DNA from: Proteromonas lacertae
Lineage: Eukaryota; Sar; Bigyra; Opalinata; Proteromonadidae
DNA: 64,000 nucleotides
Direction of reading: 5' to 3'
Assembly (NCBI GenBank): GCA_002245135.1
Contig: NGBS01000300.1
Location: forward strand, 1 to 64,000
Position 1 is the first letter of the stretch; every line of letters starts with the position of its first letter. Made by a program: the position numbers and the translations under genes. Positions 54,968 to 60,229 of this stretch are shown here, one piece after another. The notes beneath the pieces were generated by a model. The model saw nothing but the letters and a program-made list of their open reading frames with translations. It had not been told where the DNA came from and searched no databases.

Positions 54968-56252
54968 ATGAAGTGTATTTTTGCTTTGTGCTGTGTATAA
55001 AATAATTGCGTAATGTATATAGACTATTTTCGTTATATTAACATTCGTAATTAATGGATTGATTGGATATACTTATATGCAGAAATTAAGAGGATTATCA
55101 AATGGTCCAAAAGAGTCAGATATAGTTTATCAACCTGTGAATGTTAGTAAAGTTGATCTAGCACATCGTATATCACATTTTGTTATTCTTTTTATTGTGC
55201 AGGTCCAGCATTTATACCAGATAAGTTTTCAATTGTCCTTGTTGATTTTAATGAAACTTTTTTAGCCAAAACAGTTGAATCTATCTTGCTCAACTCTACA
55301 AAAGAATTGTTAGGAGAAATATTAGTCATTGATGATGGTACACCCATACCAGTAAGATATGATCATCCTTTAGTAAGAATAGTAAGAAATGGTATAAATT
55401 AATGAATTACTAAATATATATATAGATGTAAGAACTGGTTTAATTCAAGCTAGGAATCTAGGTGGTAATGAGGCAAGATGTGAGTATATTGCAATAATGG
55501 ATTGCCATATCAAAGTAGCAGAAGGTTGGTTAGAAGAACCATACAAATTAATGAAAGAAGATTATCGAACTATGGTGAATCCAACTGTATTTCAATTAGA
55601 TCCTGTCACTTATAATTTCTATCCATCTACAAAAGGTATTGGTAGTTCTGCAGGTTTTTATTGGTCATTTGTACATAAATGGGGAAGTGGTCGTCCAGGT
55701 ACAATGGAAAGTACAATTACAATGGGACAGTTCTTTGTTACAAAGCGTTGGTGGACTGAAATTGAAGGAATGGATCCTGGTATGGAACAATGGGGTGCGG
55801 AAAATATTGATGTATCGCTTCGAACTTGGTTATGTGGCGGTAGGATAATGTGTGCTAAGACATGCTATGTAGCTCATACATTTAGAAGTAAATTACCTTA
55901 TCATGTGGATAATGACAAAGTATTGAGAAATGCAGTAAGATCAGCTGAAGTTTGGTTAGGTGAAGAGTATATTGATAATTTTTATAAAGCAAGGGGTATT
56001 AAGAGAGGAACTATTAATTATGGTGATATTTCAAGTATTTGTTGAATTTTATTTTTAATTTGGATAGAACAATTGGCATTGAAAGATAAATTGAAGTGTC
56101 ATCCATTTAGTTGGTTTGTTGAAAGGTTTAAAGGTGTTGCACCCTGTTGGAAAGGTATATTGTTTGAATCATATTATTTTGTTATAGAAGATACAAAATG
56201 TGGTTCTTTTACTCCTGTTCAGCCTAGTGATATAATTAAAAGTTACTATTAA
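54968..56252 (+). CDS. Polypeptide GalNAc-transferase-like glycosyltransferase (GT27)
   Basis: Type II membrane protein: MKCIFALCC joins TIFVILTFVINGLIG (signal anchor) through a 28-nt intron. The catalytic domain has FSIVLVDFNETFLAKTVES, VIDDGTP, a MDCHIKV metal site (DxH), GQFFVTKRWW, and GMEQWGAENIDVSLRTWLCGG, which is the Gal/GalNAc-T motif of GT27. A Cys-containing C-terminal segment (LKCHPFSWFVERFKGVAPC, KCGSFTPVQPS) replaces the ricin-type lectin domain found in animal enzymes. Five short introns. Predicted Golgi lumen enzyme that starts mucin-type O-glycans; the PTTVAPT protein at 4589-6161 would be a plausible substrate, though this link is inference. Confidence 0.88.
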
Positions 56253-56453: not shown

Positions 56454-57813
56454 ATGAATTTGTTTGGGAAAGTAGTGTTGATAATACTTGATACAATATC
56501 CCATTCTTTGCTTGGAATCATTCAGCTGGTATTTATATCTTCATTACACTGATTTAGAAATCAATAGGCAAAACAGAGAATTATTCATATTCATTCTTTT
56601 CAGTTAATTTTTATAGTGAAGTATGTTTGTTATTTATTATATATTTGTTGTAGTTAGTGAAATTCTTCATTTCGTTAGTTTTCTATCTGTTTTATAAATA
56701 TCAAGGAAAAGTAAATGATGAAAAAGTATCTTGGAAAGATATTTGCTTATGGTCAATACCTGCTCTCTTGTTTGATATAGACGCAAATATGGAGTTTATT
56801 GTTATGAAATATTTAAAATCTGCTGTTGCTGTGTTAGTATTTAGTTCCTTAGAAATCGTGATAGTTGGAGTAGGATCAGTATTAATATTACATCGTCATT
56901 TAAATGGAATTCAATGGGCTTCAATGTTTCTATTATGCATAGGAGTAGCTAATAGTGAATTATCATCTTGTGAAAATTGTCAACATCTAAGTGATTATCC
57001 TTTATTTGGTTCGTTTTTAGCAATATTAAATGCTGTAGCAGCTGCAAGTCAAGGAGTTGCAATAGAAAAGTTAATGAAAAAGACTGAGAATCTGTCCATC
57101 TGGCATCAAGGTATATTTTTATATGGATTTGGTACATTATTCAATTTATTATTCTTAATAATTATGGAAAGATCAAATTCATTAAATGCATTATTCTTTA
57201 AAGGTTATAATATTTGGGCATTTATTTTAATCCTATTGTATATATTATTATTATTATTATTATTATATTAATAGTTATGTAGCATTTGCAATGTTATCAA
57301 ATGTGATAATTAAACATATAAATACAATTGTTAAAACAATAGCTGCTTCTTCCTCATTATTTGTTACTTCCATTCTTTCAGTTTTCTTCTTTGATTTTGA
57401 TATGAAATATCTTTTTTTTTTAAATTACATTATATTATATAATAATTGTTTCTTTAATTATATGTTTTACTATTCCATTTGTTTTATCTCTTCTTACAGT
57501 TTGTATATCAATCTATTTATATCATGCAATGGCTGACACTGAAGAAGCAACTCCCAATTTACCAGTTTCTGCTGTTGATGAAGATGAAGAAAATAATGGA
57601 ATTGAAATGAATAAAAAGAAAATGAAGAAAGTTCGTGAATCTTATTCGAAGATAAATGCAATAGAAAACAGTGATGATGGTGATGATGAAAAAGAAGTTG
57701 ATGTAAATAAAAAGAAGAATGAAAAGAAGAGTGATAAAAAGAAATACAAAGATAAATCAGCGAAAGAAAGTGAAGTAGCGTCCTTAATAAAAGCTGAAGA
57801 AGATACTTCTTAG
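56454..57813 (+). CDS. Nucleotide-sugar transporter (SLC35A-type) with a putative U12-type intron
   Basis: Starts MNLFGKVVLIILDTISHS; ten predicted spans. Family features: AVAVLVFSSLEIVIVGVGSV, LNGIQWASMFLLCIGV, ENLSIWHQGIFLYGFGTLFN, and after an intron YVAFAMLSNVIIKHINTIVK, then NIPFVLSLLTVCISIYLYH. These match Golgi UDP-galactose/CMP-sialate transporters (SLC35A). Joining FDFDM to NIPFVLS needs removal of 57407-57470; this segment begins ATATCTTTTT, ends AC and has TTTCTTTAAT 13 nt before its end, as expected for a minor-spliceosome intron. Without it the frame breaks. The acidic/basic C-terminal tail (DTEEATPNLP to AEEDTS) is cytosolic. Next to the GALNT-like gene, and likely supplies its donor sugar or one like it. 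Confidence 0.82.
57407..57470 (+). other. Putative U12-type AT-AC intron in the sugar-transporter gene
   Basis: 5' end ATATCTTTTT (U12 consensus ATATCCTTT), branch-like TTTCTTTAAT (consensus TTCCTTAAC), 3' end AC. Removal restores the reading frame and conserved protein sequence. Confidence 0.65.
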
Positions 57814-58201: not shown

Positions 58202-60229
58202 ATGGGAAGAGCTCCATCTAAAATTAGAACTTATCCAGTATATATTAATCATTCTGCTGTAGTTGGTACTGAAAGAATTATCGAAAAGAGAGTGTTATGT
58301 AACTTATGCAGTGAATGATAGTATAAGTGATAAAATAAAGATAATAAAGAAATATAATACCAATAAAATATCAAATGAAGATATAGAAAGATATAAGAAT
58401 AGTATAAAAAGAATAAGTGTGTTAAACATCCCTCACTTATGCAAAGTTGAAGAAATAAAAGAAGAAGGTAAAAATATGTCAATTTATCTCAGTAAGTATA
58501 GTAGTAGTTTAGAGAATATCAATCCAGTGATCTTTTTAGCAAATAATGGTATAGAAGATATATTGAAAATAGTTTGTGAGTGTATTAGTGTATTTCATAT
58601 TAATGAATTGGTGTATGGAAATTTAAAACCTTCAAATATCTTAATAAATGAGAAAGTTGAATATTACTTAAGTGATTATTGTTGTTATTTTCTAACAAGA
58701 AATGTAAATATGGGAATAAATGAAATTTCATATTTAAGTCCAGAAATCATTTTAAATGAAGAATTGACAGAAAAGAGTGATATTTGGTCAATTGGTTGTT
58801 TAATATATTACTTATTGAGTGGTAAAAGAGCATTTGAAGGAGAGTCAACAATTGAAATTAAACTGAAAATCTTGAGATGTGAATATGTAAAACTAGATTG
58901 TGAAAACAATGTTGAATTAAATGATTTAATAGAAAAATTTAATTTGTTGATTGAGAAGTTGATAAAGCTAAAATCAGATGATAGATTATCAATAACAGAG
59001 TTAATCAATGAAATTGATAGTATGATTATATTGTTGTTCTTCATTAATTTTAATCAATAGATACTCAATTTAATATTCATCTTTCAGATAGAAATGAAGA
59101 TGAAGAATTTTCAGAAGAACCTCATAATAGTGTATATTATTATAAAGTGGGTAAAACTGAATATTTACTTGTATATTGTTATTCTTTTCATAATTAGGAA
59201 GAGTATAATAATGCAATTGAATCATTTAAAGTAGCATTAAAGTATTTATCAGAAGTAGATGATGAAACAAAATGTAATATTCACAAGTATATTGCAGATT
59301 CATATTATAATCTCGTATTGTTAATAATGATATTGTAAAATAGAAAAAATATAAAAAAGCTATAAAATCGTATAAAAAATCATTGGAATATTTGTCAGAA
59401 GTGGATGATAAAACAATATTTGAGATTTATTTTGGTATTGGAAAATGTTGCTTTGTTCTTGTATAATTAATGAATAATGTACTAATGTAGAAATATTATG
59501 ATGAATCATTAAAATCATTTCAACAGTCGTTGGATTATATTTCAGAAATGGATGACAATACAGTATGTGAGATTCAGTTAGATATTGGAAAGTGTTGTAT
59601 TATTCTTGTATAATTGATTATAGTTAGTGTTTAATTATATAATTAACTAGAAAGAGTATACTGAAGCAATTAAACCACTTCAAGAATCATTGGAATATTC
59701 GTCAGAAGTAAATGATAATATTAAATTTGAAATACATGAATATTTAGGATTATCATATTATTATCTTGTATGAATAACAAAATCATAAATATTATAACAT
59801 ATATTTATATAGAAAAGATACAATGAAGCAATAAAATCATTTCAAGAATCATTAGAATATTCATCAGATATAAATGATGAATCAAAATGTGAAGTGTATA
59901 AATTCATTGGAGAATCTCATTATTGTCTTGTATGATTAATAATTTAGTAACCGAATAGAAATATTACAATTTGGCAGTATTGTCATTAAATAGATCAATA
60001 AAATGTTCATCATCAATAGATAATTTTATAAAATGTGAAATATACAGATTTTTAGGATTGTCTTATTATTTTTTGGTATTATCTTTTAATAATATTTTAT
60101 AATAATTTTATTAAATAGCTTGATAATGATCATGTAATATCTTCCTTACAAGAAGCATTAAAATATGATGATGGGGGAAAAAGGGAAGTAATAAAAGCAT
60201 TATTGGATAAATGTGGTTACATGGAATAA
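58202..60229 (+). CDS. Pseudokinase with seven tandem TPR exons
   Basis: Exon 1 codes MGRAPSKIRTYP; a 25-nt intron joins LVLKELSKRECY. The kinase C-lobe reads YGNLKPSN (Asp to Asn) and SDYC (no DFG), with TEKSDIWSIGCLIYYLLSG nearly identical to the gene at 36373-37791. After an acidic linker come seven TPR-like units of about 39 residues (KKYKKAIKSYKKSLEYLSEV, KEYTEAIKPLQESLEYSSEV, KRYNEAIKSFQESLEYSSD and others). Each unit is one exon, and all introns in this part are phase 0 (27-45 nt). No membrane segment or signal peptide. Likely a soluble protein-binding scaffold; function unknown. TPR fragment at 44241-44690 is a relative. Confidence 0.8.

Follow-up and report, generated by a model that had tools for sequence, protein, structure and literature searches.

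A probable U12-type AT-AC intron in a nucleotide-sugar transporter gene of Proteromonas lacertae, and a possible AT-AC-biased minor spliceosome with altered 5' splice-site reading

The transporter gene and its AT-AC segment

The stretch of Proteromonas lacertae DNA analysed here (64,000 nucleotides, hereafter the window; GC 22–33% in 2-kb steps) belongs to a 50.2-Mb assembly made up of 1,181 contigs and contains a gene for a nucleotide-sugar transporter that is SLC35A-like (PF04142, i.e. Pfam Nuc_sug_transp). Its five modelled exons form one open frame of 398 aa and are separated by four segments, of which three are modelled as GT-AG introns that begin GTAT and end TAG, while the remaining one has AT-AC ends (Table 1).

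Table 1. Features of the transporter gene model in the window
Feature	Position	Strand	Supporting evidence
Exon 1, start ATG (modelled)	56454..56528	+	
GT-AG intron 1, 29 nt (modelled)	56529..56557	+	
Exon 2 (modelled)	56558..56620	+	
GT-AG intron 2, 33 nt (modelled)	56621..56653	+	
Exon 3	56654..57237	+	
GT-AG intron 3, 37 nt (modelled)	57238..57274	+	
Exon 4, ends ...FDFDM AA	57275..57406	+	homology to 6i1r/6oh4
Probable AT-AC (U12-type) intron, 64 nt, phase 2 (AA/T of an Asn codon)	57407..57470	+	gapless join, position in paralogue
Predicted 5' splice site ATATCTTTTT, T at +6	57407..57416	+	
Predicted branch site TTCTTTAAT	57450..57458	+	
Predicted 3' splice site AC	57469..57470	+	
Exon 5, NIPFVLS... 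to stop	57471..57813	+	homology to 6i1r/6oh4

Elsewhere in the window, an ORF at 55398–56045 resembles by eye an exon of a polypeptide GalNAc-transferase, and at 59100–59950, after a kinase-like ORF, similar short coding stretches (NAIESFKVALKYLSE-like, by eye) lie between intron-like stretches of the form GTAT...TAG. An automatic intron finder run over the window returned 13 GT-AG and 15 AT-AC introns against 11 each for the nonsense pairs TG-GA and GA-TG; because it fails to separate GT-AG from nonsense pairs, we claim no window-wide intron consensus.

The segment at 57407–57470 begins ATATC followed by ten T and ends in ATGTTTTAC, with TTTTAC as its last letters. Its 5' end, ATATCTTTTT, fits the RTATCCTT rule with a single C to T, at +6 (PMC2846911, in part), and AT-AC is one of the two end types allowed for U12-type introns, the other being GT-AG. 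Positions 57449–57458 read TTTCTTTAAT, the last A of which lies 13 nt before the final C. The imperfect branch-site candidate TTCTTTAAT shares seven of the nine letters of TTCCTTAAC (rule TTCCTTRAC, with the A ∼10–15 nt from the 3' end) and differs at one letter from the search motif TTYCTTRAY. The letters are thus as the original prediction described them, i.e. AT...AC ends and a branch-like motif 13 nt from the 3' end.

Retention of the segment would shift the frame because its length is 1 mod 3. The upstream frame read into the segment is stop-free as far as 57536, so that stop codons give no argument against retention. Excision yields FDFDM-NIPFVLSLLTVCISIYLY, with no gap at the junction when compared with the solved structures of CMP-sialic acid transporters (6i1r and 6oh4), and the joined protein FFFDFDMNIPFVLSLLTVCISIYLY scores 101.9 (6i1r) and 99.3 (6oh4) bits over the entire match. 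The proposal that removal of the segment rejoins FDFDM with NIPFVLS therefore holds, in that the frame is restored and the join is gapless.

Two further measures were set aside. The pattern ATATCYTTT followed by the branch motif (at most one mismatch) and AC matches once in the window, while Markov shuffles give a mean of 0.27 and at least one match in 25 of 100; a looser motif (two mismatches, any letter at +6) matches five times against a shuffle mean of 3.5. Motif significance within the window was rejected as evidence since chance level is reached in those 25 shuffles, and the codon-usage score of the exon join (−0.29, against a median of −0.31 for 1,362 control segments) is uninformative for the junction. 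With motif and codon usage at chance level, the case is carried by the restored reading frame, by homology spanning the junction and by a paralogue.

Conservation of the intron position

The paralogue (L023, contig C38) has 82 of 169 aligned residues identical to the window transporter, with no gap at the junction. Its coding sequence is interrupted between FTFDM and NLPFICSLFIVCISIYLY by a 57-nt segment (C38:44258-44314, minus strand) in the same codon and the same phase 2, which reads ATATCCTTTA...TTTTCTTAAC...TTTTAC (in full, ATATCCTTTATATATATAAAAGAAATATTTTATTTTCTTAACTTATTATTATTTTAC). Both its 5' site (ATATCCTTT) and its branch motif (TTTTCTTAAC) are near the textbook U12-type form, with the branch A at 17 nt from the 3' end, beyond the usual distance, and the codon score of the join is −0.36. 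The position is therefore conserved as a U12-type intron in the paralogue, in the same phase.

A predicted protein of a related species (P0001; 83% identity across 84% of the query) has the C-terminal end ...FEFDMKYHFLILFI, which is compatible with translation of ATGAA followed by ATATCAYTTY. None of the four related proteins found spans the spliced junction, the three besides P0001 ending before it, and a search for spliced transcripts in the protein collection returned none.

Weighing of other readings

A frame-restoring GT-AG choice, unmentioned in the original prediction although use of GT-AG sites was named there as a refutation, exists at 57448–57499 (GTTTCTTTAA...TCTTCTTACAG). If the major spliceosome removed this intron, the AT-AC look of the segment would be accidental. 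In its favour, the resulting join contains no stop and the 3' end is a pyrimidine-rich CAG. Against it, the three modelled GT-AG introns of this gene all begin GTAT and end TAG. This choice also inserts four residues, replaces the start of a matched helix and lowers the Pfam Nuc_sug_transp score to 98.9 bits, compared to 109.9 bits for the AT-AC join. It is also contradicted by the paralogue, which leaves the protein homology at ATATCCTTT and resumes it after AC, and P0001 could leave it at this point as well; we regard it as very improbable. Major-type AT-AC introns usually begin ATAAG. Excision of 57407–57470 by the major (U2) spliceosome could appeal to the occurrence of AT-AC ends outside U12-type introns (PMC3584512, in part), yet the segment has ATATC where a U2-like 5' site would be expected, it contains the TTCTTTAAT branch site near its 3' end, and U11, U12 and U6atac occur in the genome (see below), so that we give this reading equally little weight.

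It is slightly less probable still that there is no intron at all, and that the segment reflects a sequencing error or real frameshift, a pseudogene or an insert retained in a divergent loop. In favour of this are the ten-T run at 57412–57421 and the upstream frame, which is open to 57536. Altering only the T-run would be insufficient, because in the downstream frame it is followed by a TAA at 57421–57423. Moreover, the GC content of the segment is 9% against 25% and 30% in the flanking exons, the same interruption recurs in the paralogue with P0001 compatible, and apart from this the frame is open throughout the five modelled exons. Taken together, we put the probability that 57407–57470 is a genuine U12-type AT-AC intron of the nucleotide-sugar transporter gene at roughly 0.92.

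We infer that this intron is spliced, and in a U12-dependent manner. Recognition of the ATATC 5' site and the TTCTTTAAT branch site would fall to U11 and U12, after which U6atac would take the place of U11 and lariat splicing would ligate ATGAA to TATTCC. Taken alone, the intron adds just one more example to a class already known.

Minor-spliceosome genes in the genome

Profile searches of the genome contigs with Rfam models found U6atac (81.5 bits, cut-off 33), U12 (56.9 bits, cut-off 53, a margin of only 3.9 bits) and U11 (three matches of 63.4, 63.4 and 61.7 bits, cut-off 39). No match in 14 prokaryote control genomes exceeded the cut-off in these searches, and 8, 3 and 1 of the 14 matched below it for U6atac, U12 and U11, respectively. 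Because the flanks of the three U11 copies are nearly identical, these copies may represent one gene on several contigs. Two minor-spliceosome proteins were also sought, and both of the specific proteins tried (2/2) were found with matches in 0/14 control genomes: SNRNP25 (29.3 bits, cut-off 22.8, model positions 50–85 of 89, on two contigs in near-identical form) and CENATAC (40.5 bits and, within the same 1.5 kb, 30.9 bits; cut-off 25.3, model positions 1–66 and 240–309 of 330).

By contrast, U4atac was not recovered: the genome search with RF00618, in which 48 of the 1,767 candidates from the first look were scored, had none at E ≤ 1, and a hand-made pattern combining the U6atac of this genome with the usual U4atac layout also found none. 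A U4atac gene may have diverged or been overlooked. Rfam models run over the window had 0 matches.

The motif CCCATAAA lies 59–64 nt upstream of the U6atac, U12 and U11 genes (L009, L010, L011, L012, L013) and occurs four times in 128,000 bases (both strands of the window). It is probably a proximal promoter element common to the snRNA genes. In addition, a TATATATA stretch lies near −31 of the U6atac gene, which ends in a T-run, as expected for Pol III.

A genome without minor-spliceosome RNA or protein, which the original prediction had named as a refutation, is not what we find, since U11, U12, U6atac, SNRNP25 and CENATAC are present; of the four snRNAs that it proposed to search for, three were recovered but U4atac was not. 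These genes support the view that the organism has retained a minor spliceosome, which in the motifs tested would serve AT-AC introns. In human cells, CENATAC promotes AT-AN minor introns (PMC8280824, in part).

AT-AC candidates across the genome

We searched the genome with the pattern ATATCYTTT...TTYCTTRAY...AC and its ATATCVTTT counterpart, using backwards patterns as controls. The former gave 77 matches against 28 in the control and the latter 50 against 24, with 13 rows common to both and a chance level of ∼16 for each pattern from word frequencies; the counts of 77 and 50 include unmerged near-identical loci (e.g. C131, C132 and C607; C385, C573 and C798; C254 and C560). Both patterns fix TTT at +7 to +9 as well as the branch motif, and are silent on introns of other form. 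A first, strict AT-AC pattern had given three matches against one in its backwards control, among which L016 is a convincing intron by eye, while L014 and L015 have the appearance of coding DNA. The GT-AG counterpart, GTATCYTTT...AG, had 0 matches in the genome and 21 in the backwards control, a number that overstates chance, as the word-frequency expectation is ∼1.9. Zero against ∼1.9 fits an absence of such introns for this one motif only.

A hand count at distinct 5' starts of both patterns gave T 58, A 31, C 12 and G 4 at +6 (n = 105), compared to about T 10, A 10, C 5 and G 1 expected by chance (word counts × 0.00158). For the ATATCYTTT matches, T occupies +6 at 58 of 70 distinct starts (hand count), the same form as in the window intron. 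Among the matches listed (L016, L019–L073), 35 of 49 distinct candidates join exons in an open frame against 39% of 6,323 control AT-AC segments, and the coding score is positive for 19 of the 49, compared to 16% of controls, with a slight bias in favour of the candidates, which had somewhat more end choices than the control segments. The 35 open-join candidates among the matches listed are 44–71 nt long.

Ten joined candidates were compared with Pfam. In three of the ten, the join falls inside a match over cut-off, namely a mitochondrial carrier (L059, A at +6), where it also lies within PDB alignments, a KH domain (L046, T at +6) and a BTB domain (L065, C at +6). The join lies inside matches below cut-off for Isy1 (L064) and an alpha/beta hydrolase (L055), both with A at +6; the Pfam match begins or stops next to the join for a metallo-beta-lactamase fold (L038, T at +6) and a calcineurin-like phosphatase (L072, A at +6), and the remaining three have no Pfam match at the join.

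Other features of these loci were observed along the way. An AT-AC candidate, ATATCATTTTG...TTTTCTTAATTATTGTAC, lies at G000:C1082:64803-64853, ∼800 bases past the window. The KH-domain gene with its AT-AC candidate is present on C385 as two inverted copies ∼0.5 kb apart, and apparently on C798 too. Near-identical AT-AC matches recur on other contigs (C131, C132 and C607; C573), so that haplotypes or recently duplicated loci may be present in the assembly.

The U6atac change and reading of the 5' splice site

The minor spliceosome is an ancient machinery with an unusually rigid 5' splice site. In the alignment, the Rfam U6atac consensus GUGUUGUaUGAAAGGAGAGAAGG reads GUGUUCGAUGAGCCGAGAGAAGG in this genome. 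Incorvaia and Padgett reportedly described in 1998 the U6atac letters that base-pair with positions +6 to +8 of the 5' site, and three of the changed letters are presumably these. Duplex folding indicates that the U6atac of this genome prefers ATATCTTTTT (−4.0) over ATATCCTTTT (−2.5), while for the consensus U6atac the order is reversed (−4.2 and −6.8, respectively). The class with A at +6 pairs weakly with both U6atac forms (−1.4). The 5' end of U11 is unchanged, and its duplex folding favours C at +6 (C −5.4, T −2.7, A +0.4). U6atac pairing can thus explain T at +6 but not A at +6.

The explanation we favour is that the 5' site beyond ATATC relaxed in this lineage to T or A, not C, at +6, in step with the altered U6atac; we infer that the U6atac change could be the cause. 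These results suggest an AT-AC-biased minor spliceosome with altered reading of the 5' site, and the wider genome pattern may represent a minor spliceosome variant that is new. In its most specific form, i.e. a minor spliceosome serving only AT-AC introns, in which U6atac changed from the conserved GAAAGGAGAG to GAGCCGAGAG, the partners of +6 to +8 were lost and the introns drifted from ATATCCTTT to ATATC(T/A)TTTT, the proposal is tentative, and we would place it a little short of even odds. If true, the lineage would be a natural counterpart of laboratory pairing mutants of U6atac and the 5' site. The system could also show how the rules for splice sites evolve jointly with the snRNAs, and if splicing of AT-AC introns, which is CENATAC-dependent in human cells, can stand alone.

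Comparison with known systems

Among the titles and abstract openings listed in searches of open-licence papers, none describes a minor intron set of AT-AC type only or coevolution of U6atac with the 5' site. In Physarum, transformed minor introns are said to have been described in one paper. The AT-AC U12-type introns of animals and plants resemble the candidates reported here in their AT-AC ends, ATATC start and a T-rich branch motif close to the 3' end, and U11, U12, U6atac and CENATAC are likewise in this genome. By contrast, +6 is mostly T or A among the matches here, whereas 5' sites usually follow RTATCCTT with a single C to T change (PMC2846911, in part). Unlike in most species, where GT-AG is the majority subtype (PMC10639083, in part), the one motif tried returned no GT-AG form.

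Minor introns are scattered among protists in a pan-eukaryotic survey, in which the Amoebozoa Physarum, Protostelium and Pelomyxa schiedti are likewise protists with minor introns kept or expanded, P. schiedti having 90 (PMC10639083, in part). The Pelomyxa assembly comprises 52.4 Mb in 5,337 scaffolds (PMC8887013, in part), compared to 50.2 Mb in 1,181 contigs here. For Blastocystis, all four snRNAs have been reported (PMC5608401, in part), and the minor introns of Blastocystis ST1 are, as here, short and rich in AT-AC (77%, 196/253; PMC10639083, in part). The mean length of the ST1 minor introns is just under 42 bp, whereas the open-join candidates found here are longer, at 44–71 nt.
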